Shown here in pieces: positions 32,327-64,000 of a stretch of 64,000 bases of DNA. Numbering within the stretch: the first letter of the stretch is position 1; each line of letters begins with the position of its first letter. A program made the translations under genes and the position numbers. The notes below the pieces were generated by a model, which saw only the letters and a program-made list of their open reading frames with translations, did not search any database and was not told the DNA's origin. Origin of the DNA: Paramacrobiotus metropolitanus (taxonomy: Eukaryota > Tardigrada > Eutardigrada > Parachela > Macrobiotidae); NCBI RefSeq assembly GCF_019649055.1, contig NW_026570249.1, forward strand, positions 248,001 through 312,000, given 5' to 3'.

Positions 32327-35300
32327 ATGGAAAGCTCGACATTTCCTTCCACGACGAACAGATTATATTTGAGTAAGCATATTTGGCTTTGAGTTTTTTA
32401 CCGACATACATAATTAAATTATAAATTAAACAGTACCTGCACGTTTGTAACAACAACCGTTATCACAATAGCGTAATTCTTCACCTCTACCGGCTGTACA
32501 TAACAATAGAATGCATATTGTGACATTTTGTTAAGCCATTATTGTATTTTACACGTCTTAATTTAACGCCGTTCACTTACTTTTTATGTGATGCACTTAT
32601 TTATATCACAGTTTGCCTGCATATAAATGTAAACAACATATTCGGTGGGTTCCATTATTCTACATATATTACGACATTGTAAACCGCAGCATTAGTTAAT
32701 TAAGATTTGCTTCCATTGTGGGTTTGTTACGTGCGCTTATTTTTTGCAAATATAGTAAAAGTGATAATTGCGCAGGCCTGTGCCAAAATATTATCTGGAA
32801 TGTGTGTGAACGTTACGAGGACATCATCCGACAGCAGCCAGACAACTACAGCGACCAGAATGGAACTCAAGCGGAAGCATTTGGTAATTAGCACAGCAGC
32901 TGCATGACATCTGCATTAATTTTGAGACGCTCACTGTATATTACAGTACGTGCGACTGCACGAGTACAAATAGCTAGTGCTTCGCTTTAATAGACAAGCC
33001 TTCCTCTGGCCTCACGTTGTTTGAATTTCCCTGTCGCAACTCCTCCGAAGTAACCGGAGCCTTGGCTGTTACAAACTCGGTAAAGCAGACAATATTCGCA
33101 ATACCTACTTAATTATCATGTATGTAACAGCATTATTATGCATAAGCCATAATATAATCGTATATCATATGACTAATGTTTCACTTCTCACAAGTGCAGC
33201 CTACCACCTACCTAGACTAATTTTAACGTATTCCACGATGCATTTGACAGGATGGAGCAGCAGATCAGCACGATGATGTTGTCCAGCTATTGAGGGAATC
33301 ATATGCAAATCAAGAAAAAATAGCAGGTACAAGCACCGCTTGTAAATATCGGAAACAAATCAGAAACGTTTTACGGCATATCTACAGATGCAGTTTACTG
33401 CATAATTGTGCACTTCTACGGAACATTTTCTCAGTTATCTGAGTACCAGCAAAAGGGTTTGCACCGAAATGCGCGCGGTTCAGAACAATTAAAAATGCAT
33501 CGGCCGGTATCCCGTATGCGGTAAAAGATATTAGTTATGTGCCCGCACATTTAAAGATCCCGCTTTGAGCGGTAAAGGAAGGTTCAGTCAAAGCAATGCT
33601 CAGTGTGAGTAGTAGTCATACGAAAATTTTTAAAATTGGATATGCTCCGTACGTACTACGTAGTGCCTACCGGTATTAGGTATTATATGTAAGTACTGCA
33701 TTAAAATCTCCGTTAACAACGGCTTGAAAGTATTCAGCGCAACCACATTAATTTTAATGCTTATTTTATTACTTTCTGATAGAAGACGCAGCCAGGGATG
33801 AATCGACAAATTGGCGTTACAACTACCTTGAACAACAAGGTGTCCTGATTGGTGCTATGGAATATAATGCAAAGTTGTGCTGTGAACTGGCATCTGCAAA
33901 AAGCGAAAACAGCATTCTAAAGCTGGAAATCGAAAACGCTAGAAAACGTTTATGTGAACTTTCGGAGGAAAACGCCACAACTCGTAATGGAAATGCGACC
34001 GGTCAGCTTTCCCAAGGAAATAAATCATCAAAGCCGAAAGTAGGTACATTAATACAGTCATAAATGGACGAAGTTAATTACGAAATAGCAACAAAACTGA
34101 GAAACGAACCCTGACTATTTGGCAGTGAAATGTGAGATTTTGCTTATTTTATCGGGCAAAAATCTCGAGAACACAGCAATACTCGTATTTAATATGTTTC
34201 AGCCTGACATACAGATATACTCGTACGCAATTTTTATTTCATAAAATACAGGTACAATACATTGAACATAGAACAAAAGCAGTTAATCACAGTAACTAAA
34301 TCTCATTTAACGTACTGTTTTATTGAATAGAAAGACATGGAGACCCTTAAGAATGAACTGGCGAAAAGTAAGAGAAAGGCCAAGCTCTTCATTAAACGCT
34401 CGGAAGAACTGAACGCGGAAAACTTGGAACTCTTGGAGACGGATCGAAAGCGCTTGAAAGACCAGTTAATGTTGGATTCCTTGTTATCGCAGCACAAAGC
34501 GGAAAATGACTCTTTAAAACATCGGGTTACGGAATTGGACACGTTCCTTTCTGGATGGAAGCAAACTTGTAAACAGTTGCGGGCTAAGCTTGAGGACTTG
34601 AAGACTAAATTAGCTGCCCAGACAATCGAGGTCGCGCATTTCCACCGTGTAAAAAAAACGAAGGCTGCCGAAATCGCAAAGCTGAACGGAAGATGCGCGG
34701 TAAGCCTGCTCGAGCAACCTTAATGTTTAAAACATATTCTAGAAAATTTAACACGCGTACATCGTACGGTAATTGCAGGACACCGAGAAAGCCAGAGCCC
34801 ACTTGGAATGCCAGATCAACCATTTAAACGAACAATTGGAAAAACTGCGACAGAGTGACAGCGAACAAAAGGTCGAACTTGACGAGGTAAAACGAAAGTT
34901 AGCCGAAGCGGAGATGAGTGTGACTGCAGAAAGGTTAGAATGGACGGCCAAACTGGAAATGTTGGAGGCGATCAATGGAAAATTAGCGGAAGAAATAAAC
35001 AACTTAACCGCACAGAAAGAGATTATTTCGGAAGGCACCAACAAATTAGAACGGGCAGAGTTGGCCTTACCACCGGAAAAACAGCAACAGCTTTTGGAGA
35101 CACAGTTGCCGAATCAGGCATTCGTTGACGAAATAACAGAAAGATGCGTGGTAAAATTCCCAGCTTGACTCAGTTGGTGGGGAAACAAATTCTTTAATTA
35201 ATATTTTTTTCTCTCCTCTCTAAATAGACATTATCAGAGGAGCTGGCATTGGCCCGGCGAGAGACTGGAGCAAAACTTTTAGAAATTGCCCGACTGAGGG

Positions 35301-35731
35301 GATTGCTAGCTGAGCCGCACAACGACACGGCTAACCAGCATTCAGAAGTTTCTATTGAACAACACCAGGTGCGGCTTCGCAGTTCGGAACGGAAAACACC
35401 TTCTGTGGAGCCGGCTGCCTGCTTGGTGGAGGAAGCTGATAAACAGCCCACATCCAGTAGCCGTTCTACAGCATCAGTATCGTTAACGGCGGAGACTGGA
35501 GCATCACAACAGGCTACACCCAACCAGGAAGGAGGCTTTTCAACACTGCTTATTATCAGGCCTCCGGAACCTTCGAAACCCGGTTACCCTGCCGTGGGTG
35601 CTCCACTGCACCCACAGTCTATCGCCGCCAATTCGGCGTCAATGAGGGCTGCCGTGGCACGACACTGGCAAGCAGTTCGTTCTCGTGGTGGCGGTTCTCG
35701 CCCCGACCACAGACAAAGGGCAATGCGATAA
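32327..35731 (+). CDS. Coiled-coil protein, tandem family copy A
   Basis: Eight exons: 32327-32372, 32776-32883, 32994-33079, 33251-33326, 33783-34039, 34331-34699, 34779-35150, 35228-35731; phases join to 605 residues. The N-terminus has STTNRLYL then LCQNIIWNVCERYEDII, shared with copies B-D. Exon 4 gives DGAADQHDDVVQLL. Exon 5 gives NWRYNYLEQQGVLIGAMEYNAKLC, the most conserved block. Exons 5-7 are Lys/Glu/Leu-rich heptad-like coiled coil; exon 6 ends KAAEIAKLNGRCA. The last exon is a Ser/Thr/Pro-rich linker ending in a basic SRGGGSRPDHRQRAMR tail. No signal peptide or membrane segment is seen, so it is probably a cytoplasmic or nuclear scaffold. Family not recognised; function unknown. Confidence 0.82.
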
Positions 35732-37862
35732 AACCCAGTGCACAGCATATACCAGAAATAAGAAGTATACGTAATTATTGATCATGAACGATATCTGTGG
35801 CGAGCAGCTGGATGTAATTAATTGTTGCTTGATTGTGCATATACTATAAGTATGCCGGTGCATACATAAATTTTATTAGTAATCTGTCTTTGATAGCCAA
35901 ATCATATGGATATAAGGTGCAAGCGTTGGGAAGCTTTCTCACAGTCAGAATTATAATTCCTGTTTACCTATGTCAGGCGCAGTATTGCGTTTGTTTTTTT
36001 GTTGTTGCTGCTGTTTCTTAATAAGAAAATATTGCTTATCTAGTTATTTGACTTACTCCTGGTAACAACTAACAAGCTGTTTCAAATGACAACAAGGCAT
36101 GACAGCGCATTATCCCATACGGCATACAATATTTACATACTTGTATTATGAATTGTTCTGGGACTTGTTTAAAGATTTTGTCTTACATTACGTACGCAGC
36201 ACATGTGCAGCAAGAAAAACAAAAAACGGTAGCGCGAAAGCCTGAACTTTCTTATTATTGAATATCCCTTTACCAATTGATGTTTCCTTATTAATGAATG
36301 AAAAATTACAGTAACAGAAACCAATTTCTGTGCCGATGCAGCAGGGTGATTTGAATGCGGACCCAGCGTAGTTGATTTGAATATGCACATGCACCGGCTT
36401 CTGAATTTCTACCGCACCTATCAATTTCTGAATTTCTATCGGTATATTGCGTAATTACGTATATTGTAGTGTACAATTAACTGACTGACTGACAATTGAC
36501 TATCCGGTAGCTGCAAGGACAAGCATACGAAACATGACCTTTCTAATAAGTTTAATCACAAAAAAACCTGTAAAGCTATTAGAAATAAGTGCAGCTGTCA
36601 ATACAGCATAACTGATGATGAAATCAGGTGATGAATTACAAGATTATAAAATTATGGCGCTGGAATCTCCCAGCTATCGCTCCTTCAAAAAGGGCAAAAT
36701 GTTTGCAGTTAAAATAACTTCAAAGTCCTATTGAGTAACTACTATTAATTATAATTATTGCACGGACCGAGTGCTGTTTTAAGCGGTATTAATTTCCTCG
36801 ACATTTAAAGGGGCTGTATTTGATATTATTCTGCAAGACAATTGCACTTGCCTCTTTATAACGCCACTAATAACTATTTTGTCATTAACAACTAAACAAA
36901 GTAAGTAATAACTTTACGAGAATACAGAACGCTAAGACAAAGGCGGCTCCAGTTTATTTACTTCTCGCGCTTCATACGACTAATACGAATATATAAGAAG
37001 TGATAGAGAAACGCGGTAGTTCAGCAAGTTTTTCTGTTGCCCATTATTCTGTATTTATGCCAGCGAATATTGTTTCCTGCCATAATCCGTAGCATGGCGC
37101 TGTTCGGTTAGAGTGTTCCTGTTTGTACAGTAATGCTATCCGGCCGTAGACGGCGTAAAGTAAATTTTTTATGTACCGTATAATCAAAGTCTGTAGTTTG
37201 TACAGAACAACGCTTGAATGATTTATAGCCCACCGTGCTGCGGCATAGTGGAATATAATACCTGTACCGCGCATCCTCAAATCAGCTGACATACGTGTTA
37301 AACTGTGTGAAATTGTGATGGACATGAGAACATAAACTACAAACTTCGAATGGGCTACCGCCACAATCTCGCACGCTTAATACGCAGTTATACAGCCCTA
37401 ACTCTGTGCCGTACAGACTTTGGTACGCATGCAGAAGCTACATACTCTACAATTATTTCTTGCCAAGTTGTCCGATGCTTATGAAAATCTTTCCGATTTT
37501 CAGTGCTTCACCAGTCAGGACGTCACGATGCAAGGAGCTAATATTATATAAAGATGATCGTTACTTACAGTTAGAGAAAAGTGTACTAGACACTTTCCTG
37601 GGTTTCAGAGTATAGTTAAGTATTTTAATTGCCTAAAATTTCTGCAAATTTCTTCGGCCGTTTGCAGTTTTTAACATCATTGCACTTCAGGCCAACGGTT
37701 GCTCCGGATATCACTGGCAAGGGAAATAGCGTGCAAGAAATTCTTATACGAGTATCTATAATTATTATCAATTATACGCATATACGTTTATGGGAGTACA
37801 TCCACATTCGTATACTGCGCATCCTACCAAAACTTAATTTTATCGGAAATTTATCAAATACC
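35732..37862. other. Spacer between coiled-coil genes A and B
   Basis: About 2.1 kb, AT-rich, without recognisable genes. It should contain the 3' end of gene A and the promoter of gene B. Short ORFs at 36169-36424 and 37044-37364 (minus) have no support. Confidence 0.4.
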
Positions 37863-40800
37863 ATGGAAATGTCAGAAATAACGGCACATCGCAATAACGA
37901 CAAGGACGTCACGAAATGTTTGGAACAAGTTGATCTGCAAAAACGGCAGCCGTGCTCCACAGCTAACAGGATGTTGCAAAGTAAGTTGCGTAGTTGCGTA
38001 AACTGTAGAAGTACGAGTACTTACTGAAACGCGCAAGCCACAATTACGCCTTTTTAATTCCCACCGTGCAGTACTATTCAAGAAGTTTCACAGGAGACCA
38101 TTGCTATATTAATTCACGTTTTGCATCTGCACAGCTCTCTGCGAAAATATCGTTTGGAATATATGTGAACACTATCATGGGATCCTCAAGCAGAATCAGA
38201 CTCGCTCATCCGGCACAGCGCCGGTGCCGGTGATGGCAGTTGGTGAGTAGTCTCTATATAGATATAACTTAAGTAGTACTACTAGTAGAATAACAATGCA
38301 CTATGCAGAGCGATACATATAGAAGCATGCAGAGCAAATCTCAAAATGAAAGAGTGATCTCATTTTGAACCAGGCGTTCATGTTACTTACAGTACAACAT
38401 GGTGATACAAATGCTGCAGAAGTTTGCCATGTTAGGACCCTTACCAATGAATCGATAACAGCACAGCTGCTTGCAGACGCGGAGGCTTCGGTACGAGATG
38501 GCGCGCGGAGATGCTATCCATTCTATTCATATTCTACGCCGGTCTGCAGTACTACGTACTGTAGTTGTCTAGTACCGTACGGCGTATGCTATATAATTTT
38601 ATACCTGTAGTGATATTTTTATATAAATATTATAGGTATAAATCATATATTATACTTTATACATAAATCATACACACGGTATAAATCATACGTAATTATA
38701 ATTATTACATACAATGTTTTGAGGCGGTAGACGGTGGTATGGTCACTCGCCCATTTATCTTACAGAATCTTCGTAACTATGATTTACGAACATATTGTAG
38801 AAGTCTCTTATTAAAATATTCGAATCCCACACATTTCGTCTTCAAAAATTATAATATTGCTTTTCCTGTATTTTAAGCATTCGATTGAACACATTACTTT
38901 GTAATTTGGCTTTGCTGTGTTATGAACTTATCAAATAGACATACCGAAATACATATGTATTGAAGGGTTATTGGCGGCTTGTAGACAGTACACGTACAGT
39001 ATTTTATTTAATTCATTCAGTTTTCCAGGTTGCCGACCAGGCCCGACAGTACAATGAAATTATGGATCTTTTTAAGAAAAAGGAAGACGTGCAAGGTTGT
39101 CACTGCAACTGGTTTACACAACAAATTTTCACTTGTATTTGTAATCTATTACTGTACCTGTACAAGTACCTGTACCTATTACTGTACAATTGGTTTATAA
39201 TTTCTATATTGCCATAATTATAATCGCGAGCGGGTGTATTATAATAATAACTGTTGCAAACTGTAATATTGTATCAAAATACCTATCTGCATTTATAATA
39301 TCAATGTGATACACCTACTTACGGCAGTAGTAGTCTAACTTGTACAGAGTAGGTATCTGTACAGTACTCGTACGACTGTATGTACAATATGTTGGTCAAT
39401 TTTGGAGAACCGCTGCTCCTCATTTGCTTCGTCCAGTTGGATAAAGTTGTATATCGATTTTTGTTTAAAGTGTATAATCTTTGTCTATAGTGTATTGTAA
39501 ATTTATCATGTCCTGTTTGCAGATCCCACATCTGCGAATGAAATAATCGACTGGCGCGGCAACTATCTCGAACAACATGAAGTTCTCGCGGTGACGATGG
39601 AATATAACGCAAAATTACAGATGGCGCTTGTATCCGCCAACGGACACATCGCAAACCTGAAGAAACAACTAGATAAAGTAGAGCAGAGTCAGCAAACTCT
39701 TACCTATGAAACCATGCAGGAAGGCAAGGACAAACCGTCTTTATTCTCTACACAATGGGCCGATAGGGGTATTTTAAAAGGTCACGAAAGGGCCATTGAC
39801 CGAGAATCCCAAACGGATCCAGTTTTACCCGTCAAGGTTCGTATAGCCGATATTCACATAAAACCGAAGAAAACGAAGCTTGAAAAACAGTTAAAAGAGA
39901 AAGAAAAGAGAACTGCCAAAACCATAAACGATATGAAAAAAAAGCTAACCGCCAAAGAAAGGGAACGAAGGATTCTGGTGGATGCATTAGAAAGAAGCAA
40001 CGCGGAAATTGCTGTTATAAAAAAGCAGAGCACGGTACGAAACTTGCTTAATCGTAGTTGTACACAAATAAACTGATGTACAACTTTTTTTTATATGTTA
40101 ATAATTAACAGTTGCCATAATATACCTTTATTCACCTGTACATGTGGTACAACGTAGTGTGCATTAATAAAAACATCACAATTTTTACAACATAAAACCT
40201 TTATTAAACTATTGCCATAATTATATTATTAACATGTACTGTAGGTTGCCGATAGCGAGATTAGCGGACTGAAGAGCGCCTTAGCCAATGTAGAACGAAA
40301 GGTATGTGGTATTTTACACTGCTTTAACATTAATTTTGTAATTTAGGAAGCCGTTGCTTAATCCCCATAAGAACTTAATAATTTTGCAGGGACAACTAAT
40401 GAATGAATCGACAAGCCCAGAATCCACTAAGAAAATAAATTTACTGGAAGAACAAGTGGCTAAATTGCAGAATATGCTGAAGACTGAACGGGACAACAAA
40501 CAATTTCGAGAAACCATTTCAAAGCCGTTAGAGACGGGAGTTCGAGTGGAAGAACTAAAAAGGAACTCGATGCCAAAAAGTCCAAGATTGATGACCTCAA
40601 AAATGTTATAGACGAGAAAACCGTTGAAATTACTAGAATAAACGGACAATACGGGGTACGAGAGTAGAATTTGAAATCTGAAATATAAATATAAATATGG
40701 CATGCTAAAGTTCTGGTTTTCATTGGCAGATTGCTCGGCATGACATCGATGTGCTGAAGCTCGCTCTACAGGAGAAGGAGGAACAGTTAGCACCGGCATC

Positions 40801-41630
40801 TGAGCGTATCCGGGATTTGGAGAAGTCAATCAAAGCGGTGGAAGCAAAAAATCAGCATCTACAGGAAGAGATTAAACTAGCACAAGAACGTCTCAAAGAA
40901 CGGATTGCCACTTGCTACAAACAGAAAACAGAATTTGACGCTCTTCAAAACCGATTTTCTGATCTAACCAAAAGTACCAAGAAACAAAAAACTCCAGCTG
41001 ATGAACTTAATCGTTTGCAGGCACAATGTGAGGTGAGGCAAAAGATCAACAGACGGAGAAAAACTTTGCTGATCCAGTCGTTAACAACGTCCTATGCAGT
41101 TGCACAGTAGGATACGTAAACTTGAGTATTGATTTTTTACCGATGCTGCGTACACTTTACAGGCGCTCTCGAATGAGTTGAGCAGCACTCAGCGTGATTT
41201 CCAAGAGAAGGCCTGCGAGGTTGTGACCCTTCGCGACGAAAATGCGCAGCTGCACAATCAGCTTGTCGTGCAACGAGAGAAGATGATGAATTTGTTTGTG
41301 CACAAAAAACTACCGGATTGTGGCAATCTTTTCGCGAAGTCATCAAGCCGCGCAAGAGAGGTTCGTGATAGTAGAAGCCCAGGCTCGGATATTCAAGGTA
41401 ATCTGCACCCGGAACCGGCTCGCGAACAAGATGGGAATACTCGGGCGGGTGCCGCACCAGTTCGCCGGCAAATTCCATCAACCCGAGATATTGCCAGACC
41501 GTATCCGCTGCATGCGTTTCCCCGAGTCGAAAATGATGCTACGACCTCTTTTCCACGCCGTGGTGGAATGGAATACGATGATCCGGACACCCACGCGTAT
41601 CACAGTAATTTCCGCGACGATCGGCCATAA
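37863..41630 (+). CDS. Coiled-coil protein, tandem family copy B
   Basis: Nine exons: 37863-37980, 38135-38242, 38393-38490, 39029-39095, 39523-40034, 40245-40301, 40390-40655, 40730-41032, 41163-41630; about 665 residues. Family blocks: STANRMLQ then LCENIVWNICEHYHGIL; VADQARQYNEIMDLF; IDWRGNYLEQHEVLAVTMEYNAKLQ. Exon 2 is exactly as long as in copy A (108 bp). Exons 5-9 are coiled coil. The tail has RDIARPYP, a motif shared with copy C, then Arg/Asp/His-rich sequence. Exon 7 is 266 bp where all neighbours imply a multiple of three; the frame breaks at a five-A run (40557-40561), after which KKELDAKKSKIDDLKN continues in another frame. It is either an assembly error or a disabling mutation. 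Function unknown. Confidence 0.8.
40557..40561 (+). other. Apparent frameshift in an A-run of copy B
   Basis: Exon 7 reads ...GVRVEELK up to the AAAAA run. Downstream coiled-coil sequence (ELDAKKSKIDDL) lies one base out of frame and runs open to the splice donor at 40656. One more A would restore both the frame and the phase-0 exon length. Confidence 0.7.
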
Positions 41631-43939: not shown

Positions 43940-46900
43940 ATGGATGCAGATGGCAGTTCATCGGAGACTCTGGACTCCTGTGAGGATCAGCGGAAGAAGA
44001 ATGCATACTGTTCTACCACAAACAGACTCTACTTAAGTAAGTCAAAGCATTAATATTCTGATTAAGTTTTGTGGTTATCGTATTTTTATTGGTTCAGAAT
44101 ATTCACTGTAAAGGCCATGGATATAAAAGTTGTTTAGTAACCGGTTTGGTGACAGTTAATTTTGCTTGCATTTTCTACGAGTAGTTCGTTTATATACTTT
44201 ATTCCTTGGGCAGACAAACGCACGAGTCAAACAAGTCTGATGTCATGGCCATTTGTGCAGAATATCGATATAGTGATACAGAATTATAAAATGAGCAATA
44301 TCATAGCACGAATGAAGGCGCATAGATTCATAATATAAAAGACCTTCATTAGTGCTATGGCAATACAAGAGTGAGGTTCGAATGGTTTGTATTGGATTTA
44401 AACCCGCGCTAATGTTGCGCGAACGAATCTACCGAACGAATTTGCTAGCACCGTGGTTCGTCTGCCGAGTGCCGACTAGAGCATTTTGCCTGTGTACCTG
44501 TACTGTGAAGTGATGATCTACGGTAGATTATGCAAATAAAAAACACGTTATCTATTTATCAGTATCTGCATGTGTATAAATATCAGTGTTTACCGCAAGG
44601 GGCGGGTCAACGTCTTAATCTTGATTCTAGTTTTGATTCTTTACGTCTGTCTTGATCTTGGTTCTTGATCATTGTTGCTGTGTTATCTCACTTATCTGAT
44701 GTTCAGGTCTGTGCCACAGTATCGTCTGGAATGTGTGCGAGCATTACGAGAACAAAATCCGCGAGAAGCAGGCTGCAGTCGCTGCACGGTTTCCCGGCAC
44801 ACCGGTTACGTCATCCGGTGCGAAAGTCAATAGAGACGTGCCGGGCTCATTTTACAGTAATAATTTTTTGCTCTTTTAGGCGCAGATGCATCGATAGTGC
44901 GTGGTGGTGCGAATGTTAACGGTGAATGTGCAGTTCCCGTGCATTCGGAAACGGTCGAAAAAGCGGGAATTGTGACTTCTGCTGAACCGGTAATATAAAT
45001 TCTCCGTTGCCTGCGCTTATTGTTAACTGTATCCGGAAACATATCCAGTTTCATTGCTCAATATTTTCCAGGATGTGGGAGAGCATCAGTATGAAGATTT
45101 TGTGGGATTATTGAACGACGCTTTTTCGAAACACGAGGAACTAAGAAGTACGTGCGTTATGTATGGAACGTAAAGACATAGGAGAGCAAAAGTGTCAAAA
45201 AAGTAGTGCAATAAAGTAGCGCGAAAGTGCTGGTACATAACTGTACACGATAATCAATATATATTGATTATCATGTACAGTTATTTGACTAGCACTTTCG
45301 CGCTACTAATATATTTGTATTACTAGTACGAGTTCGGAATTGTTTTTTATTGTTGCATAGATCATAGATGTGATGCTCTAATACTCTAATAACAATAGAG
45401 ACATAATATTGCGAGTAGAAAGATGTACAAGTACTTACATGCATTCCTCGTGAGGAAATATAAAATAATATGAGAAAGTTAAATTAATGTTAATAAATTT
45501 TGTTATTGTGTTGTTTCATTGTACGAAACAAAAATGTTTCGTACAACTATTCGTTTATATATGCAGTTTTCATTATCCAAGTTTCAGATCTTAGTTATCA
45601 GAATTATTTTAGATATTTTAATGTAAATTAATTTTATTTAGATTGACTATGTAATACTGTATCTTAATGTAGACGATGCAACGGACCAAAAGGAATTATC
45701 CAACTGGCGCGCGAATTATGTGGAACAACACGGTGTTCTTACCGGTGCCATGGAAATCAACGCACAGTTATGTCGTGATCTTATCGCCGCCAAAAATCAG
45801 AATAACACTTTGAAGAAACAGCTGGTTAACGACGCACAAGCCGTCCAGTGCGCCGATGCCCAACAACGCCAGGAGCATACACCGTTATCTAAGCCCGACT
45901 CCGATGCTAATCTGTTGTCAGCTGGAGGTTCGAACGGTCATGTTGAGGATTGCGAGAAGGTCGAGCTTCGGAAAAAATCGCGTTGCTTGAGGAAACGCTG
46001 GTGAAAAAAGACCAATTACTTCATGCCGAGAAGAACAGGCTGAAAGAGACGTATATTAACTACCTGAAGACCAGCAAGGATAAAGTCGACAAAGAACTGA
46101 CCGCCAAAGATGCCGAAATTGCTCAGTTGAAATCGACGTTAAATGGGAGAGAAGCCGCCACTGCTGTACTGAGCGGAGCGTGTGATGTGAGTACTAGTAT
46201 TGATTATTCTAACAAATTGACTGATAAACTATGATTGAATGATTTACCGAAATTTTTTTAATTCTCTAATTTTCCCTGTTTTGTTTGGCAGAGGGCACAG
46301 GAAGAAATCAGCGCGGCGAGAACGAAAATCGTTATGTTGACGGAAAAGGCCCAATCCTTTGCTAAGCGGGCATCCGACTTGGAACAAGAACATTTATGTC
46401 TTTTGGAGAAGGATAAGAAACGTTTGGAAGAACAGTTAAAATGGGAATCTATTATTGCGCAACAGCAGCAAGAAATAGAATCCCTGCGACGGAAAGTGAC
46501 CGAATGCGATGGCTCGCTGGAGGTACAGGACAACAAGCTGAAAGATAAGATGATTCAGACCATGGCGACGAAACTGGAAGAAACCGCAAAAGAACTGGCC
46601 TCGAAGAATTTTGCCCTGGACAACTTGAAAGGCAGCCTTCAGAAGAAGGCTGCTGAAATTGCTAGCCTTAATGGACGCTGCGCGGTAATTATGTCATCTT
46701 CTGTGTGTGCTTTTTTTAGGACCTACTACAGAGTACGAGTATGCATTTTTTATTTTTAAAAATTATTATTTTTTACTCATTTTTTGTTTTTATACTGATT
46801 CTGTTTTCCTTTACGTTGTGCCTGCTTAGCGCTTTTCCGCTGAAGTGGAGGCGGCGGTAAAGCTAACCATCGACAAATTAGAAGACCGATTCGTTCCGGA

Positions 46901-48260
46901 ACGTGAGCGTTTCCAGCAGACTCAGAAGGCTTTGAACGAAGAATTAAAAAAATTGCGCGCTGCTTATGCGGATCAGAAAACCGAATTGGACTCGCTGAAG
47001 GATACACTGCTTGAGACTGGCGGAGCTCTTAGCGATGAGAAAGCTTGTGCGAAAAATTTGACCGCCGACAATGAGAAGCTGACGGTGAAGTTGAAACAAC
47101 GAGAAGAGCAAGTTTGGCAGGTCACTGCGAAGAAAGATAAGGAAATTGTTGAGCTCAATCTGAGATGTGAGGTATGCCGGTCTCTTCGGTTTTCGGTTTA
47201 GATGCCGGTTTACTTAAGAACAGTGAGTGGTGTTCGCATTAATTTTCATTTTTTTTCTTTTTCCATTTAGAATTCGGCCAACGAAGTTTTGCAAGTCACT
47301 GCGGAGAAAGATAAGGAAATTGCCGAGCTAAATCTGCGATTCGAGGTATGCCGGTCTTTTCGATTTAGATGACGCTTAAGAACATTACTGTGAGTGGTGT
47401 TCGCATTAATTTTTCATTTTTTTCCATTTAGAATTCGGCAAGCGAAGTTTTGCAAGTCACTGCGAAGAAAGATAAGGAAATTGCCGAGCTAAATATGCGC
47501 TGCATGGTATGCGGTCTGTTCGGTTTAAATACCGCTTGTTTAAGAACATTACTGTGAGTGGTGTTAGCTCATTATCATTTTTTCCATTTAGATTGCAGCA
47601 AACGATTTGGAGACCGCTCAAGGCACTATTGCTCAGCTGCGCGAGCAGCTAAACTGTTGCCAAAAAGCTCAAGCGGATAAGGATGAAAAAGTGTCTCGTC
47701 TCCAGGGCGTTCTGGAGCAACTCCGCCAGTCACGCGAACGATCTGAACCAAAGTCACTACCGGCCACCGACACGCGCACTGTGGATCCGGCTGTGAAATT
47801 GAACGACTCAGTTCCTCCGGTTGTCGAATCGGACGCCACGCATACTTTAAATAAGGATTTACCGAAGTCAGTATCAGGAACGGCGTCGGCAGAAACGACT
47901 TTACCTACTACATCTGCAGTTCAAACGAAAACTTCGTTTGTCCAACCTGTCGCTTCGAGTTCCGTAGAGGCAGTCCGACCGGCATCATTATCGAAACCCA
48001 CTTCTTCGGGTTCCGCGACGCCCACTGAGCCGGTACACCCCGTGGTACATCCATCCGCCAGGGATGCAGCGCGACCGTATCCAAAGCCGTCCCGTGGCAG
48101 AGGCGCGCGCCGACGAGGCAACCAACTCGTATATCGTGGTAATTCGAACCGTGGTATACCGCATCCGCCACATCACGGTGCGTATTTTGGCCATGGTCAT
48201 GGACTGCCTCAGGATTTTGCGGACGATTCTTTCTCCTGGGGAGACCGCACTTACTGGTGA
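43940..48260 (+). CDS. Coiled-coil protein, tandem family copy C
   Basis: Ten exons: 43940-44036, 44707-44817, 44880-44989, 45072-45147, 45673-46186, 46292-46684, 46830-47171, 47271-47345, 47432-47506, 47592-48260; about 820 residues, the longest copy. Blocks: CSTTNRLYL then LCHSIVWNVCEHYENKI; DVGEHQYEDFVGLL; NWRANYVEQHGVLTGAMEINAQLC. Exons 5-10 are Lys/Glu/Leu-rich coiled coil. Exons 8 and 9 are near-identical 25-codon units repeating the end of exon 7. The last exon is a Thr/Ser/Pro/Val-rich linker, then RDAARPYP and a basic Gly-Arg and His-rich tail (RGRGARRRG, HHGAYFGHGHG) that could contact nucleic acid; this is inference. Exon 2 uses a weak donor (gtgcga). Exon 5 has one apparent frameshift at an A-run. 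Function unknown. Confidence 0.8.
45216..45306. repeat. Long hairpin in intron 4 of copy C
   Basis: A 91-bp near-palindrome: outer arms GTAGCGCGAAAGTGCT and its inverted copy, inner arms CATAACTGTACA and GATAATCAATATA with their complements, with almost no loop. It is either a tiny fold-back MITE or an RNA hairpin formed in the intron. No clear TSD. Confidence 0.7.
45972..45977 (+). other. Apparent frameshift in an A-run of copy C
   Basis: Exon 5 reads ...EDCEKVELRKK to the six-A run. The continuing coiled coil (IALLEETLVKKDQLLHAEK) is one base out of frame and open to the donor at 46187. One extra A restores the frame and makes the exon length fit the flanking phases (514 to 515 bp). Confidence 0.7.
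47102..47591 (+). repeat. Tandem duplication of a coiled-coil exon plus intron in copy C
   Basis: Three consecutive units each carry a QVTA(K/E)KDKEI(V/A)ELN coding core, a GTATGC donor and a similar intron containing GTGAGTGGTGTTCGCATTAA and a T-rich CCATTTAG acceptor. Units 2 and 3 start at 47271 and 47432 (161 bp apart); exon 10 starts 160 bp later. Unit 1 is the end of exon 7. Each added exon is 75 bp and phase 0, so the duplication lengthens the coil by 25 residues without breaking the frame. Confidence 0.85.
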
Positions 48261-49420: not shown

Positions 49421-50314
49421 TCAGTATACGGAGTTCATAATGTATGGGAAAGCGGGGCGTGCGTTTTTCTTACCTGGTATGCAGGACCATGCTAAGGTCA
49501 AAGGTCGGTGTTTGCATCCCGTATCATTCCCAGGATCCTTGGATGTGACGACACACGAAGGTTCACCTTGCTGGCAGGCTTTTTTGAAGTCACCAAGTGC
49601 ATTAAAATCCCGACAGCTTGTAGTTGAATTTGTCGGGGATGATGTTTTATATTTAGCTTGGGCCATTGTAACCCCATAATGCTGTTTCAGCTGTGCTTCG
49701 GCGGATAACGGTGGGTCATCCGCACGGGGACAGCTGATGTTATACCTCTGCCCGTCGGGAATCACCACCCTGGAATACAGGAATGATCCAAACAAAGTTT
49801 CTCTGGTGAATGTCGTTGGTATCGGATCTGTGGAATTCAATTTCGCTATGGCGACTGCACTGGTGCAGCGACCGATCCAACTCGGACAAGAAATTAGTGC
49901 CTGAAAAACTTTGGTTTACTGTATACGGTAGTGTCAGGTTAGCATTCGTCAAAAACTGCAGTTTATGGTCCCGTGATTATCGAAACATACTAAACAGTTG
50001 ACCAATCTACCGTAAAAACAAACAGTAAAACGACGTATCAAAGATAAACTATAAGCTTTAACAATAAGTAATCGTATTGGTTCACAATTATTAATATTAA
50101 GCGCTTATATCGAAGTTAATTTATACACTCCTATCGAGTTATATCAAAGTTAATGTAAACCATGAAATCCTGTTCTACGTGGCTTTCAGTTACAATTTAA
50201 TTTAGTTTAAACCACTTATAGACCACTTTTAATGATCAAGGACTTATCGCTTGACGAACTTACCAGTACGATGACAATGCGCAACCGCTCAGCACCGAAA
50301 AATAGGTTTCGCAT
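49421..50314 (-). CDS. Secreted SUEL/galactose-lectin-like protein, copy 1
   Basis: Two exons on the minus strand: 50314-50264 and 49900-49421, joined in phase 0 to about 176 residues. Exon 1 and the start of exon 2 make a signal peptide (LRIVIVLALISC). The mature part has the order of a sea-urchin-egg-lectin (Gal_lectin) domain: GQRYNISCP, then AQAKY, then spaced cysteines (SCRD, KACQQ, SCVV, GCKH) and a terminal PLTLAWSC. It is divergent and lacks an obvious YGR motif, so sugar binding is uncertain. It is paralogous to the gene at 52172-51699 (shared PTTFTR block). A possible donor (GTAAGA) lies just before the 3' end, so the last 18 residues are unsure. Confidence 0.6.
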
Positions 50315-51686: not shown

Positions 51687-51692
51687 TTTATT
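51687..51692 (-). terminator. Poly(A) signal of lectin-like copy 2
   Basis: AATAAA on the minus strand only seven bases beyond the stop codon, implying a very short 3' UTR. Confidence 0.5.
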
Positions 51693-51698
51693 TAAAGG

Positions 51699-52172
51699 TC
51701 AATTAATTTTCTCACTTTTTCGGCAGAACCAGGTAACGACTAGTGGGCGCTCCTTGCACTGTTCATCCTGCGAAGAATCATTGGCCGTTGTCCCACAAGC
51801 CTGACTTCCGGCTGGACAGTCGGCTTGCAGGGTGAAAAGGCTCTCTTCATCATCGCAGTCCTCACTGGGAGGATTTTTCTTGTATCTGGCTTGCGCGAGT
51901 ACGACTTCGTACTTGTCCTTCTTGGTTTGGTTACCGGCAACGGGCAATGGCGGATCAAAGGAGCGTGGACATGTCATATTGTAACTCTGCCCATGGGGAA
52001 TTGGCAGACGTGAATATGTTATTGTTGAGACATTTTTAGTATCGCCAGCTTGGGTCCGGGTGAATGTTGTAGGCACAGGACTTGGGGAATTTGAGTTTGC
52101 TGCTAGCTGGGCATCTGCATCGGCTGTATCAGCACCGTTAAGCAGAAAAAAGACGCTCTGTAAGAAAGCCAT
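51699..52172 (-). CDS. Secreted SUEL/galactose-lectin-like protein, copy 2
   Basis: A 157-residue reading frame. The N-terminus (AFLQSVFFLL) is a plausible signal peptide, although an upstream exon as in copy 1 may exist. Domain landmarks in order: HGQSYNMTCP, VVLAQARYKK, cysteines at DCDD, ADCPAG, QACG, EQCKERP and a final LVVTWFC. The spacing 'CP - A.Y - C - C - C - C - PL.V.W.C' fits the Gal_lectin/SUEL fold, which binds galactose or rhamnose on glycans; the assignment is by motif only. NPPSEDCDDEE is an acidic insertion. It is clearly paralogous to copy 1 2 kb away, both interrupting the coiled-coil gene array on the opposite strand. Confidence 0.62.
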   Translation of the reverse strand: MAFLQSVFFLLNGADTADADAQLAANSNSPSPVPTTFTRTQAGDTKNVSTITYSRLPIPHGQSYNMTCPRSFDPPLPVAGNQTKKDKYEVVLAQARYKKNPPSEDCDDEESLFTLQADCPAGSQACGTTANDSSQDEQCKERPLVVTWFCRKSEKIN

Positions 52173-54178
52173 GCAAAACTAATCACTCTGAAAATAAAAG
52201 TGTTTTACGCATGATTAGCATTCGCATGATAAAACACAAAACCTTCGCAGCGGATTTTGTAACAGATGAATTTACAGATGTACCAGACGTATTTTGCTAA
52301 GTCACAGTATCTTGAAAATCTGTCTATGGTGTAAGATACTGAAAATTCATGCTTAGTAGGGAATTACGTATTCACGTGTTCTCAAAATTTTGTATGTCGG
52401 TTGAGCTAGAATAATCACTACTACAGTGCAGGCTGTACAATACAGTATGGTGGCGCTCAACTTACCGCAATAATTAAGTAATTCATCGTTCGAGCTTAAT
52501 TCCGCGTCGTCAACGTTACATGCACAATACAATTCCCAAACTTCAGTAAGCTGGAACGATTGCTATACCGTCCGAATAATGTATTTACAGCTGACAGACA
52601 ATACAAATATAATATCACAATGGGTAGCAGCGCTGTAGCAGTGCTTCCTAATTTTATACGCTACTCGGTGGTATTGTATAAGTAAATCAATTCACCGATT
52701 TCAAAATATAATCCGTTTGATAAAATGTTTTTGCGAAGAATACATACACCGATTTCAAGTCATCATGTTATATGCAGGCATATGTCAGAAGTTTTTCAGA
52801 TGATTTTTGAGAATAACAGCGGACATTAAATGTATGCACGTTTAATTCCGAATGCCAAAGCAGACTACCTAGAACTTCCAGTCTGTTGCGTCTGACGGTG
52901 AGCTTGTCGGTGGAAATTCAAGGGTTGCTGTTTGAAAACTGCGATTTATTTTAGTATAGAGCTGTATTCGATTGCTAAATTTGGCACCTGATTTGACTGA
53001 TTATTTATTACGCCTGAAAAATTTATATTGCTGCGGGAATCAATTATGCGGTAATTGTACCGGTAGCAGAGCCACGAAGCAAGACGAGCTTGCACTTACC
53101 GGTTAGCTACAAAGTATAAGGCGCACAATAATGAGAAGCCATTCGCCTCCTATCCATTTAATATATAATGTCTCTATGATTGTATCGATATTATAAAAAT
53201 TTTGCTTTTACCCATATCACATACGGTAGCTGCTTAAAAATAAGCGAAAATGCAATAGCATCAATGAAATCTGCAAAACCATAATTTGTCGGAAAAGCTG
53301 AATTCTTTGAATGATAGGACTTGAAAAGATGATAAACGTTGGATCACAAAATAAAATTAAATAGTACATCTTATTGCCTTTTACCGATAACGAAGCAAAG
53401 ATGTTGCAGTACGTGCTAGCATATAGTTAGGTTTACTAGTATTGTATTGTATATATTTGTACCTGAGCCTTGCTCATATCGATTTTTAATGCTTTTTATT
53501 TCAAAGTCCTGCGGACTTAGTCTAACAAATATTTTAATGTAAATAACAATTAATATTGTTTTCGGTTTATCCGTCGCCCCTGTTTCAACCCTTGTTGATA
53601 AGTTGCTTAGATAGTTAGCTAAATAGACTATAAGAAACTTGCACTATATGTATCTGACGATGGGGTCTTACGGATGTGTATTTTACCGGGTTGAAGTGCG
53701 CGATTGATTCATTTTAATATTATCATTTATGCGCAAAAGATCGCTTTCTTTGTTTTAAAAGGACTCAAAGGGTTTAGACTACTTTACGTATAAAACTGCA
53801 TCTTATTACCAAGTTCTGTAGGCACGAAGGTGTTTCACAATAATTAGTAACATGTAAAATTTAGCTGATTAAGCGGCTAGCATATAATTAGATCGCATTT
53901 GTCTAATGTGATATTTAAAAACCTATCGGGAAGCCTGCTCGTGAGCAGTCTGTAATCGCCAGGCGGGAAATATTTTCAGGATGAGTATCATGAGTTCTAA
54001 AAGGACTGTTTCGGTTGAAAATGTTTTAGTGGATTACCAAACCAATATTGCACCAAAACATAACCAATAGTGCTAATGGAAAGGGGCAAAACACTATACT
54101 GTACCTTTGTACCGCCACCCGCGTGGAGTGTGACGTTACGGCAGTAGATATGGTTCAATGTAGTTATACATAAATGGT
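52173..54178. other. AT-rich stretch, nothing recognised
   Basis: Upstream of lectin-like copy 2. No ORF with recognisable similarity and no clear repeat. Confidence 0.4.
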
Positions 54179-54179
54179 A

Positions 54180-57800: not shown

Positions 57801-58908
57801 AACAATATCGAAATACCATAAATACAGAAATAACAAAGTTACAAAAATAGCATTATCAATACAAACATACCTTTTTTCCAAAACCACTAGCTTCTGTTAT
57901 TATTTCAAATTTCCGCTATCTGTTCCCAACTTGAGCAGTTTTTGCACTAACCAGTAATATATAACAGTATGATTACTGGAAATTACTATTGAACTCTCAT
58001 TTCCTGATAACCAATATAACTAACAAGATTACTAGCTTTGAACGCATTTAAATCAGCACAATCGTATCTCACAACAAGACATTTTATAGACTAACTTCCA
58101 AACAACCAACTCACAAACTAATTTCCAACCGCACTCCGAATTCCTTTATATACCCAAACCACACTATGCTCGACAAGACCACCAATAAAAAAGAAATGTC
58201 AACCCACTGCATTCTCATTCTCCCAATCAAAAACCATTACGTCAGAAAACCGTAAAAGCGGGCCCATTTATAATAGCGAACCCAACTCGGCGATATACCT
58301 TACGGTAGTACTATATCTGAGTATATGCTAAGACTAGACAAGAAGTAAAATTACATATTGAGCCAGAGAACCCATGACTCATATAGTACTAACGACTGCA
58401 CAGCAGTCTTCCGTACACTCGTGCAGCAAGCAGCTCGCCTGGCGGAAAACACTTCCGCCAAATATTTGATTGTATGTTCAGTAAGTGAAATATGGATGTA
58501 CATCAAATGTGAGTAATAGACTGCATGCATAAGTATATGTGTACTTTGCTACTTAGTCATCGCCAGCATTTTATTTTAATCACTTTTCTCACATTCTGGA
58601 AATGGTTGTACAAAACATTTCACCATATCTTACTATTACCGGAAATATCACATTTGTTTTATCGCATAGTGATGTGCAGTAAGCTTTATTCCTGTTTTCA
58701 AGCTAAAAAAAGAGATCTCTTAATTAGGAAGTGCTAATAATCAGGAACTTTCACACATTTCTCGGTAGAACGAAAATAACAGCGCAAATACATTAAGGCT
58801 CAAAGTGTTAAATTACTTAATAAATCATAATTTACCAGATTTAATCAATCTACGAACAACATTTTTGGCAGATCTGCTGCACAGATACCCATTATAAATA
58901 GATAACCT
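54841..58908. other. Gene-poor region with hairpins
   Basis: No gene recognised. An inverted pair sits at 55021-55045 and 55082-55107 (GAACACATTTAA core), and a second hairpin at 57059-57118. The ORF at 56998-57384 runs through that hairpin and is not considered a gene. Confidence 0.4.
57059..57118. repeat. GC-rich hairpin in AT-rich DNA
   Basis: Arms 57059-57083 and 57093-57118 are inverted copies with small differences (core AGCTGTGCGCCC and GGCGCATAGA) around a 9-base loop. Flanks contain partly inverted ATTAAT and GGGGC blocks, so a larger MITE of about 130 bp is possible. Confidence 0.65.
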
Positions 58909-59762
58909 TTAGTAGTATCCGCTAGGTCCCCATGCAGTAATCTGTCCGAGATAGTTTGACTGATACGGATACGCTGGTTGGGAATACGCTTTCTTCAATC
59001 CACTGGACATGAAGGACATCCCGTGGCTACTGCTCTGATAGCCATCGCTGCTGCTGCCTGAACCACTCGATTGGGCAGATCCGCCGGCATGCGCACCTGG
59101 TCCGGAAGCACTGGCCCCGACGGATACGCCACTTCCGGCGCCGTTAGGCCCTTGGGCGGACGCCGAGTTATTCAGGACACTGACACCCGGTTGGTTGGGA
59201 ATCTGGACGCTGGGAACGTAGATCTGCGGGAAGTGGAGAGTGGGAAAGTTGGGATTGGGCTGCTGACCGGCAAAATCAAAGGTCATCGGCGGGTAGGACG
59301 TCATGCCGGGCAGAGGCTGCATGGGCTGCATTGGCTGGAAGCCATTCATGGGTTGCATCGGCTGCAGATAGTTGTTAGCTAAAAATAAGTACAAAGTTGA
59401 CAACTGAAATCCGCCAAAAGCAAAGACCATACTCGTACTCATAGGCAGTTTAAAAACCAACACGCCACCAAAATAATTTGGCTAAATACGTTAAACCCGC
59501 AGATATCACATGTTAACATGGCACACAGGAGATAACAAGATGTGAAGATTTAACAAACAATCTCAATTTTGTAAATACAGGTAGTCAACTCTCATACAAT
59601 TTATAAAAATGTACACGACCATAGTCGTAACTACCATATGTTGTATAATTAATACGAGTACGTACTATCACACTTACATCCATACGTGGGCAACATGAAA
59701 CTGTAAGCGCAGCGCAATACCACGCAAAGGAAAATCCCAGCGGAAACGAGACGGCTGTCCAT
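58909..59762 (-). CDS. Secreted Met/Gln/Pro- and Gly/Ser-rich protein
   Basis: Two exons on the minus strand: 59762-59678 and 59378-58909, joined in phase 1 to 184 residues. Exon 1 encodes a signal peptide (VSAGIFLCVVLRCAYS). The mature part begins with repeats of the type LQPMQPMNGFQPMQPMQP, then Pro/Asn/Phe-rich sequence, then low-complexity Gly/Ser/Ala (GSGVSVGASASGPGAHAGG) and an aromatic tail ending GPSGYY. The composition resembles structural extracellular proteins (cuticle, silk-like or adhesive), but no family is recognised. The exon choice rests on the signal peptide, the GTAAGT donor, a T-rich acceptor and phase match. Confidence 0.68.
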
Positions 59763-62690
59763 TTCGAAAGCTTGCAGCAAAACCTTTTGAAGACAAAAGG
59801 TACAAACAACGGGAACGTACGTAGTTCAACGAAAACCTTAATAATATTCAACGCTAAATACAAAATTGATTTGTAAAATTAGCTGGTTGCTGTTTAGTGC
59901 AAAGATGAATGATTATAAAACGGTTCATGTTCTTATATATGATTTTTCACCTTTACAAACAAGGTGCGATCCTTCAATTCGCAACAGGGACATAAAACCA
60001 CCACACCAAACATGCTCAGACCGGCGTGTAATGTGATACGGTTATGTATCGGAAGCATGTCATGATCAACACGAAGTACCTTGGATTTATCTGTTAGTTT
60101 ACGGATTGGCAAGTCAAGCGCTTCCCGGTAGAACATGAACAATACGCGTCACATAGTACACAGTTTAATTTCCGCACTATTATCGTTAAAAGTGTGTGGA
60201 CGAATACATGGTTAAATGTTTAATGTGTATTTGCTGACCATGCATCAGTAGCCTCAATAAAAAAGTGTACACTTAACATGAAAATTTTTATTCTGTGCAT
60301 TCAAATGTTGGTGATTCATGCATTCAGTTAAATGCCGGTAGTTTGTCGGTAAGCGCCGTGCAACGAACATTAACCAAAAATTTATTATTTTCCAACCCGG
60401 TGTGATTTATGAAACGGGATGAGTCGCCTGGTTGTAAGTTGTAACACATTATTCACAAAAAGGTGAAAACGTGTAAACAACGGGAAAACCTTTTATCCAC
60501 GTTTGGATCGTTTAGTGCGGCTTTTCTCAAGCACAGCAAAATGACAATGCATAATCCGTTGTCAAAAATTGTATATTAGTCATTTGTATAAACCAGTGGT
60601 TTTCCCTTGAAAATTTTTTCATATCGTGCGCATAATAAAAGTAAAAAGTCCCTGAAAAGTTAGCAAATTTACTGAATTTGATTATTGTTATATAGCTTGT
60701 ATGTTAAACGATGGTGCATTTTCCTTGTTAAAATTAGACTAATGACAGCATCTAGTATGAATAATTACGAACGTTTAACAGCTTCCACATTTTGTAGCCT
60801 TACCATTAGTTTATCAAAAAGTCAGTTGAATGGTATTTTAGTATTCTGCCCGTTGTAACTCTGCACATTCCATTAATATGCTGCAATATTTGCTTGCTTA
60901 TTTTTGTTAAACCACATTATGTAGAAGTACTACATAATGTGCGCAATAGATCTTTGTGCGCAATCAATGACAAGAACTCTGAAGTTAATTTTGCTTTCAT
61001 CTGAATAATTTAGTGCAGGGTCCTGACAAGTCGATAAGAAAGTCTCCTTGGCTTGGTTCCGTAGCACACATCTATATATGCAATTACTAGAAAGACCCTC
61101 CTTTGATCTGAACTGAAATAAAATCATAAGCGTAAAGATTTGGTTAGCCGCAAGGTTGTCCACTCGAATACTGCATAATCATTGGTGTAATACAGTTAAA
61201 GAGGAGCAATATACATTTACGGAAAAGCATACGGATATGGCAATGAATCATGTTTCGAAAAAAACTGTCAGTGTGTTTGTGTAAACACTACTGTTTACTA
61301 TAAGCAACTGCATACTGCGAGTATTGGCATAATATTCAACAACTGCGTAAAATTCCACATTAATAATACTATAGGAATAGATGTTACAGGTAAGTTACTA
61401 AAAGACGAAGATGTACAGATCTGTTTATGAATTATAGCTACTTAATGTTTTAAGGTTTCTACAAATATTTACATACAGGACGATAATATAAACCCTATCA
61501 TACAAAAAGGAGGTACAACTGACTGACCACTACGTACAATACACTAATCCAACAATTTTCTGCATAATAATACCATGTGTTCTTTTATACGAAGCATAAG
61601 CATAAGCGCAGTCAGATATGGCTCACTATATCAAATGCACAATACCGGTTTCAGTCATTTATGCAGATGAAAATTTCTTGCGAAAAGGTAATATTTTTTC
61701 GGAATAAAAACATTCAAATTCGCTAAAACTAAAGTAACACTATATAATTAGAAGGTAACACTATAGAAGGTAAAGGTGATATTGTATTGAAGTACTCGTA
61801 ACTCGTAAGTTCAATAACTACGTAACTGGCGCCGGTATAGAGAACAGCGGGAAAAACCAGATGGTCAAAATTTTCCGGCTAAATACAGTGCTTTTATTTC
61901 GGATACCGTCCTCATGGAACAGTTTTTGGATAAATAACAAAATTGTAAAAAATAATAGAGTAACCCAATAAAAATCTAACGTTTTTGTCTACGGCCTACG
62001 AGAGCAATATTATAATTATCATAGAGCACAATAATGGTACATAGTGGTAGCCGGTAGCCTCAAATCATTATTATAATATACGCAGTATACGTACTTTGTT
62101 ACTCCAGATTCCAGAATAATCGTATTAATTTTTGTTATTTTATAATCCTATTTGTACTTATTATTAAACTCTGCACATAATTGTACAGAATTAACGAAAA
62201 TTGAAAATTAACGATACAGAAATTAACGCAGTTGTTTTAACCTTCTTTCCTTCCGGCACCGGTACCGGCACTGTACGTGGTAGATCGGATGAAATGACGT
62301 CACGTCACCGCTTATGCGCAGTTGCACACAGCTGACAGACGTCGACTGACTCGGCTCAACGAAGGGATGAGCTTTGGAAACTGCACAGAGTGACCGGCTG
62401 ACCATGCTGGTTTTTTGTCCAAGCAGCCCGACAGAACCAGGCATGCTGACAGGCTGACAGTGCAGTTCTTGATCTTCTTCATTTGCAGGTTTGCAGCAGA
62501 TCCATAATGTAAGCGTCACTTTGCATGCATCAGTCTTCCGGGTTCAGCTGGAATTTGTTACCATTTTATTTGCAAATTTCTGCTTGAATATTTTTACTGT
62601 CCACTTCTTAAAGATCATCTACAAAATCTTTTGTTGGCTTTTTGAGAGAATTTCAGGCAGTCAGTAAGATTTTGTAGAACAGATCAGGAT
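59763..62690. other. Spacer upstream of coiled-coil gene D
   Basis: No gene recognised. The right end (about 62220-62690) is less AT-rich and probably the promoter and 5' UTR of gene D. An ORF there on the minus strand (62519-62223) has no support. Confidence 0.35.
62295..62302. promoter_or_regulatory. CRE-like palindrome TGACGTCA
   Basis: A perfect cAMP-response-element palindrome about 390 bp upstream of the gene D start, followed at once by a second half-site (CGTCA). CREB/ATF binding is inferred from the motif; chance occurrence is possible. Confidence 0.35.
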
Positions 62691-62691
62691 C

Positions 62692-64000
62692 ATGGAGGGA
62701 AAGACTTTGGAAGAACAGCTGATGCAGGAACGCGGAATCTTCATTCAAAATACTAGCAGAATCCTTGGTGGGTTACCTCTAACTGAGAATATCGCATCCC
62801 TAGAAAACTGGATTGGAAAGTTTTGACAACTTTATTGGGCTTCGTGGGCTTCCAACGTCCAGTGTTATTTATCCTGCACTGTGTATGACTTATCCTAATT
62901 GACAGGGCTGTGCGAAGCTGCTATACGATTCCAGCGAGATCATTATGAAAACCTTCTGCGGAATGCCAAAATGCAAGAATCTGGATCATCAGTGGTCATT
63001 CCCCAATCAGGTATAATTTTAGAGAAGTAAGAGGTCCGTTATTTTTTAGTTCCGTTATTACATCTGTTTTATGTGCTGCCTGTAGAATATGTACAGTAGT
63101 ACAGTAACAGTACATATTATTACTGCAGTAATTTGCTGGCAAGAATTCTGTAATGCCCTTTACACTGGTGCCACGCTATGAGGAAAGCCAAAAATTCAGT
63201 TTCTATGTGTTTATTTAGGAAGAACCTCCGAACCAGTGGATTTATCTCGGAATGAGCTTGGACCACAAATGTCGCCACACTCTGCGGAAGTTTACACCGT
63301 CGTTTCAGAAAAGGTACAATACATACAAAAACACATAAAGATGAAACTATAGTAATAATTACACTTGTGCAAGAACAGTTTGAGATGCAAAAATAATGAC
63401 AAACTTTATTTTTGTGACTAATACATGGAAATAATAAATTTTGCACATTTAATTAAGAGAGTGTGGAATTCGACGAATGTTTAGAGTGTAATTTGCTGTG
63501 TTTGTGAAGTAGCTAGTAAGGTCATCATGCATGTAGTGGATAAGTTTTATTCGAGTAACCTTTTGGAATTTATGTGTTAGGAACGAGCCGAACGACCCTG
63601 GATAAATGAGAAGAACCAGATGAAAGCCGAACCCCTTTCGCCATCCACTGACTGGGAGTCTGTCTGTGCCGATGCTTCGTCCATGTCGATTCTGGATATC
63701 ACTACAAGTATTTCTACGCAAATTGTCGAACACAAGCCTGATTGTGCCGATACGTCTTCGATGTCGATTCTGGATAAGACAGCGAGTATTGCTATGGGCG
63801 CGTCTGAAATGGTACTTTATCGTTTTCCCGTACAACACAGATTTAAAATTTAACCGATGCCGTTAAGACGGTTAAGTTCTGATTGTGAGTCATACTTGAT
63901 TTGCATTGTGTGATGCTGTCTTGTGTACCATGACGAATGATTATTTCCCAGCACTGAAATTGTGTTTTTTGTTAGGATGGTGTAAGCGATGTTGTGACTC
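62692..64000 (+). CDS. Coiled-coil protein, tandem family copy D (partial)
   Basis: The 5' part of a fourth family member, cut by the window end. Exons: 62692-62767, 62906-63010, 63219-63313, 63581-63811 and the start of another at 63976. Phases match copies A-C for the first three introns. Exon 2 carries the family block as LCEAAIRFQRDHYENLL. Exon 4 (77 codons) has no counterpart in A-C and contains two copies of CAD.SSMSILD, an acidic Ser-rich repeat. The last visible codons, DGVSDVVT, align with DGAADQHDDVVQ of copy A. The first exon (EEQLMQERGIFIQNTSRIL) differs from the other copies except for its last residues. The coiled-coil part would lie beyond the window. Confidence 0.72.

Follow-up and report, generated by a model that had tools for sequence, protein, structure and literature searches.

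A tandem family of predicted coiled-coil rod proteins, possibly undescribed, with rod length changing by whole exons

Introduction

Widely conserved coiled-coil families of animals include SSX2IP/Msd1 (ADIP), whose proteins are located at the centrosome or at adherens junctions, CCDC6 and CCDC149, and the synaptonemal complex proteins SYCP1, SYP-1 and C(3)G are built as a coil between two ends. Coil evolution has been addressed in several papers: in PMC5082667, coiled-coil spacers are described as drifting in sequence at constant length, PMC8598163 reports that synaptonemal complex proteins diverge fast with highly conserved length and coil structure, and PMC4350178 is on substitution patterns in coils. 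Here we describe a stretch of 64,000 nucleotides from the tardigrade Paramacrobiotus metropolitanus (the window), in which three complete genes and the beginning of a fourth belong to a family that, judging from the sequence, is possibly undescribed.

Results

Gene models and common descent

The exon models of the four genes were rebuilt from splice borders (GT-AG) and intron phases.

32327..35731, + strand: gene A, 8 exons with GT-AG borders and matching phases (32327-32372, 32776-32883, 32994-33079, 33251-33326, 33783-34039, 34331-34699, 34779-35150, 35228-35731), 605 aa, frame intact
37863..41630, + strand: gene B, 9 exons (37863-37980, 38135-38242, 38393-38490, 39029-39095, 39523-40034, 40245-40301, 40390-40655, 40730-41032, 41163-41630), frame break at an A-run, 40557-40561
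43940..48260, + strand: gene C, 10 exons (43940-44036, 44707-44817, 44880-44989, 45072-45147, 45673-46186, 46292-46684, 46830-47171, 47271-47345, 47432-47506, 47592-48260), frame break at an A-run, 45972-45977
62692..64000, + strand: gene D, first five exons (62692-62767, 62906-63010, 63219-63313, 63581-63811, 63976-), the fourth extra relative to A-C and the fifth cut by the window end

The first exon of gene C (43940-44036) was located via the STTNRLYL end common to the copies, which corrects the preliminary description. The common first introns with phases 1, 1, 0 noted there are present in all four rebuilt models, and A, B and C have the phases 1, 1, 0, 1 in common over the first four introns. 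With their equal orientation, common intron phases and homologous exons, A, B and C are related tandem genes of common descent, and so in part is D, which is joined to them only by E2 and the phases 1, 1, 0. When the E2 block of D was compared with those of A, B and C together, none of 20000 shuffles reached the score, and the E1 end of D was no better than shuffles (2352, 3568 and 1668 of 5000 reached the score). The extra exon of D (63581-63811) holds two repeats of about 26 aa; at the DNA level, two repeats 78 bp apart and 78% alike over 60 nt lie at 63657-63794. The NWR block and the coil of D would be located beyond the window end.

The family exons gave 129 tblastn rows in all against the 64-kb window, five of which lie outside the four genes with E<0.05. 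These are A6 at 1273-1437 (- strand, E 0.008), B2 at 26201-26281 (E 0.009) and 26239-26289 (- strand, E 0.047), and C10 at 3649-3888 (E 0.008) and 3322-3549 (E 0.019), both C10 rows being inside a Thr/Ser-rich ORF (3100-4326). All five were taken as chance or low complexity rather than as further family copies. The count of five is that of the first table; in a second run C1 was added as a query, as were B7 and C5 in their second frames.

Other features of the window

Several further features were found in the window.

10725-11123, - strand: ORF with a Cobl ubiquitin-like domain (28.4 bits, Pfam cut-off 25) and, in the same stretch, a Raf-like RBD match (29.5 against 25.7)
24835-25524, - strand: single-ORF protein, secreted-looking by eye, whose PG_binding_1 domain (53.1 bits against a cut-off of 23) is of bacterial type
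49421-49915 and 51699-52178, both - strand, between C and D: Cys-containing paralogs, 38% identical over 138 aa
54192-54821, between C and D: tandem arrays of 32-bp and 85-bp units

The Cobl domain and the introns point to a probably animal genome, and a scan of viral contigs with that domain gave 7 pattern matches, none of them confirmed. In a scan of prokaryote genomes reaching close relatives only, the PG_binding_1 protein gave 39 pattern matches and none was confirmed. The two Cys-containing paralogs have no Pfam match listed; they may be lectin-like (SUEL). Two short words are more frequent over the window as a whole than its base composition predicts, TGTACA (55 occurrences, 20.4 expected) and GTAC (334, 233.6 expected). 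With trinucleotide content taken into account, GTAC is outside the top eight tetramers. There was no Rfam match at gathering in the window, and no tRNA was found there by ARAGORN.

Conserved N-terminal blocks

Two blocks near the N-terminus are the best conserved part between the copies.

32778..32837, + strand: E2 block LCQNIIWNVCERYEDIIRQQ of A; in B from 38137, in C from 44709 and in D from 62908
33809..33931, + strand: E5 block of A, beginning NWRYNYLEQQGVLIGAMEYNAKL, with a predicted helix; in B from 39549 and in C from 45702

With the register of the E2 alignment fixed by the splice site, the scores were 81 (A-B), 78 (A-C) and 74 (B-C), shuffles averaging about -18 to -20, and in each of the six pairs among A-D none of 5000 shuffles reached the score. 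The LC..I.WN.CE.Y motif, which had been ascribed to all copies, is present as such in A, B and C, while D keeps only its L, C and Y and is missing WN.CE. The second motif described earlier, NWR.NYLEQ..VL..AMEYNA, is indeed common to A, B and C: within the window, the E5 match is 57% identical over 46 aa between A and C (tblastn E 2e-14) and 41% identical over 58 aa between A and B (E 8e-9). Moreover, pS exceeds pN in all nine pairs, with pS 0.73-1.0 against pN 0.22-0.31 for E5 (three pairs) and pS 0.46-0.93 against pN 0.15-0.46 for E2 (six pairs), and thus both blocks are constrained coding sequence. The AlphaFold monomer of A5, for which the alignment consisted of the three E5 sequences, has a helix at residues 2-70, confident to about residue 60 and of low confidence thereafter; the pLDDT block means are 88-98 in residues 1-60, and a helix is accordingly predicted over the E5 block. 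This model and that of A6 below are monomers of single exons, and long charged sequences readily come out helical.

Frame breaks in B and C

The shifts at the A-runs in B7 (40557-40561) and C5 (45972-45977) are absent from the preliminary description. Because of them, the full products of B and C are predicted only. The sequence is compatible alike with early decay, with an allele that is broken and with an error of assembly. Very short introns in place of the breaks (32 nt in C and 23 nt in B, by eye) are thought unlikely. If B and C were decaying duplicates, the family would be mostly one working gene here, and the single break in each, followed by stops in the old frame, would be expected. 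However, the remainder of B7 and C5 and all later exons of both genes are open in the shifted frame, their splice sites are kept, the two tails still have a motif in common (see below), and both breaks lie in A-runs, which are a common place of assembly errors; we regard such decay as very unlikely.

Rod exons and change of rod length

Downstream of the N-terminal blocks, each complete gene continues into rod exons, most of which are of phase 0-0.

34331..34699, + strand: rod exon A6, ending in EIAKLNGRCA; it matches C6 (46292-46684) and, less strongly, B7 in its open second part
34779..35150, + strand: rod exon A7, which matches C7 (46830-47171, z 4.4)
47271..47506, + strand: C8 and C9, a pair of mini-exons (75 nt each, phase 0-0) similar to the 3' end of C7

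Eleven rod and tail pieces were compared in 40 between-gene pairs, with shuffles preserving the heptad register, and ten of the 40 scored above z 3. Five of these are rod pairs at the same position (A6-C6, 18.7; second part of B7-C6, 8.5; A7-C7, 4.4; A6-B7, 3.8; B8-C7, 3.2), two are tail pairs at the same position (A8-C10, 4.9; A8-B9, 3.5), and three are across positions (A6-C7, 6.4; B7-C5b, 3.9; A7-C10, 3.8). Three expected counterparts are below z 3, namely B5b-C5b (z 2.3, 6 of 200 shuffles reaching the score), A7-B8 (z 1.4, 19 of 200) and B9-C10 (z 2.7, 4 of 200), and the rod of B is therefore only partly placed. The cross-position matches suggest that the rod exons also descend from one another, and that of A6 with C7 in particular would point to exon copying within an ancestral gene. 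In addition, Cys is next to last in seven of the 12 exon ends listed, and the pattern EI..(L/I)N occurs at six exon ends (A6, B7, C6, C7, C8 and C9).

C8 and C9 lie within a 161-bp tandem repeat (47110-47605) of 3.0 units with 81% matches. Over 20 codons they differ from each other with pS 0.08 and pN 0.06, and C7 differs from the two with pS 0.39-0.42 and pN 0.10-0.11, so that C8 and C9 are, by their sequence divergence, the more recent copies and too close to show constraint. The E5 exon is 257 nt in A against 512 nt in B and 514 nt in C, where it continues into a further coil piece, and B carries an extra exon of 57 nt. Summed over their exons, the rods come to about 247 residues in A, 272 in B and 367 in C; for these sums the coil starts in B5 and C5 were judged by eye, B7 was included in full despite its break, and the coil at the beginning of the tail exons was excluded. 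Since C has two 75-nt exons that are copies of each other in tandem, and several rod exons correspond between the genes, rod length changes by whole exons; this holds at least for C, through the copying, and at E5 for A in comparison with B and C. The local duplication with change of coil length that had been proposed for the locus is supported, and the sequence shows part of how it came about, namely the 75-nt exon copying in C, the shorter E5 exon in A and the extra 57-nt exon in B.

Coil periodicity and tails

The long coiled coil of the preliminary description holds for part of the rods. Power at the heptad period exceeds that of shuffles at p<0.01 in four of 13 pieces (A6, B8, C6 and joined C7-C9) and is marginal in C7 (p 0.02); it is not significant in the other eight (A5, A7, A8, B5, B9, C5a, C5b and C10), and the coil of D falls beyond the window. 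For A6, the AlphaFold monomer is predicted as one long helix (residues 2-122, mean pLDDT 96.4) from an alignment of six rod pieces.

47592..48257, + strand: tail exon of C (C10), with an Arg/Gly-rich stretch

The tails of A, B and C are low-complexity and Arg-containing. They had been called basic, which fits A and C (K+R against D+E in the last 70 residues: 10 against 3 and 11 against 5, respectively) but not B, which is neutral with 11 R against 11 D/E. C10 is matched by A8 (z 4.9) and less clearly by B9 (z 2.7); SARDAARPYP in the tail of C resembles STRDIARPYP in that of B, RD.ARPYP being common to both. No signal peptide is apparent by eye in the family proteins.

Comparison with known families

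The earlier statement that no described family is recognised stands as far as Pfam, NCBIfam and the PDB sequences go, with nothing at a curated cut-off. In Pfam, 17 queries (single exons, joined parts and full-length A, some of them overlapping, and not among them B6 by itself or the part of B7 in the first frame) matched no family at its cut-off, nor did five family pieces and three neighbours in NCBIfam. The E5 profile had no match at E<=10 among the PDB sequences, and gave 81 and 77 pattern matches, none confirmed, in scans of genome contigs and viral contigs, collections described as without animal genomes. The rod profile found 60 PDB sequences at E<=1, by name mostly coils, the best of which (E 0.00017) is a chain named Conserved membrane protein; a part of C found one sequence. 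These PDB matches are only weak and generic. A limited literature search, too small to show absence from print, found no published family of this build; PMC6371493 is on germ-line genes.

The genes could instead belong to an animal coiled-coil family that is widely conserved, such as SSX2IP/ADIP, CCDC6 or CCDC149, and have diverged too fast for profiles to recognise them. Against a cut-off of 34.3 bits, ADIP (PF11559) matches C7 alone at 28.4 bits (E 2e-6) and A6 alone at 19.8 bits (E 0.0009), over overlapping stretches of the profile. None of eight register-preserving shuffles of C7 matched any family at E<=0.01, a weak control, since a shuffle is no stand-in for a real, unrelated coil. The E5 helix of A also resembles CC149 (CCDC149; E 0.0023, 17.7 bits, cut-off 30; 12.5 bits for full-length A) and DUF2046 (CCDC6, PF09755; E 0.0063, 16.1 bits, cut-off 24.7), and the first 191 aa of A matched two CCDC6 chains in the PDB (E 0.28 and 0.39). 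However, the ADIP score falls to 22.0 bits when C6-C10 are joined, a query for which DUF5955 comes first (24.0 bits, cut-off 27.1), and ADIP is absent for full-length A at E<=0.1, for C6 at E<=1 and for A5 and B5, which carry the E5 block. Since A6 corresponds to C6, which has no ADIP match, the matches of C7 and A6 are not clearly collinear; DUF2046 is absent for B5, and the E5 profile found nothing in the PDB. We consider such an origin somewhat unlikely. On present sequence evidence we would not assign the family to any known one, with ADIP as the sole tempting lead.

Discussion

The reading that we favour, tentatively and at nearly but not quite an even chance, is that of a tandem family of rod proteins acting as dimeric coiled-coil spacers with two binding ends. 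In the three complete copies, A, B and C, a helical module with E2 and E5 would form the N-terminal part of the protein and be followed by a rod of some 250 to 370 residues, encoded by mostly phase 0-0 exons, and by the low-complexity, Arg-containing tail. We infer that each protein may dimerise through its rod, as homo- or hetero-oligomers, and serve as a spacer. The N-terminal module may dock onto a partner common to the copies, because it is the part best conserved between them, and the tail may bind another partner, which might be an acidic surface or a nucleic acid. The distance between the two would be set by the rod, and the copies would differ in reach, because rod exons have been shortened, added or copied without frame disruption. 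A bolder version is quite unlikely as a whole: the family would be undescribed and restricted to a single animal lineage, and its coil length would be tuned through symmetric exons that are added, trimmed or copied in tandem, giving spacers of graded reach with a common N-terminal docking module; the 75-nt cassettes of C8 and C9 could then be spliced in or out.

At present the family is a modest lead. As a tandem family with whole-exon length change, in which exon copies are still visible, it may offer a compact case for the evolution of spacer length.

Among the described systems, SSX2IP/Msd1 is similar in the sub-threshold coil matches of C7 and A6, and differs in that these are below cut-off, not clearly collinear and weaker in longer context; CCDC6 is similar in that the E5 helix of A matches it weakly, far below cut-off. 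Synaptonemal complex proteins, with an N-terminal head, a coil and a C-terminal tail, have the same general anatomy, and their fast divergence (PMC8598163) is similar too. However, that paper reports highly conserved length and coil structure, while the rods here differ among A, B and C, a comparison of paralogs set against a signature that concerns orthologs. Furthermore, no synaptonemal protein was matched in the PDB by the E5 profile or by parts of A and C, nor at the Pfam cut-off (SYCE1 against C7: E 0.017, 15.6 bits against 27). That the genes encode meiotic filament proteins of this type is highly improbable, even more so than decay of B and C. For the favoured reading of dimeric spacers, the kind of protein is already known and this mode of evolving is ordinary for long rod-like proteins; the paralogs A to C depart from the pattern of conserved length described for coiled-coil spacers.
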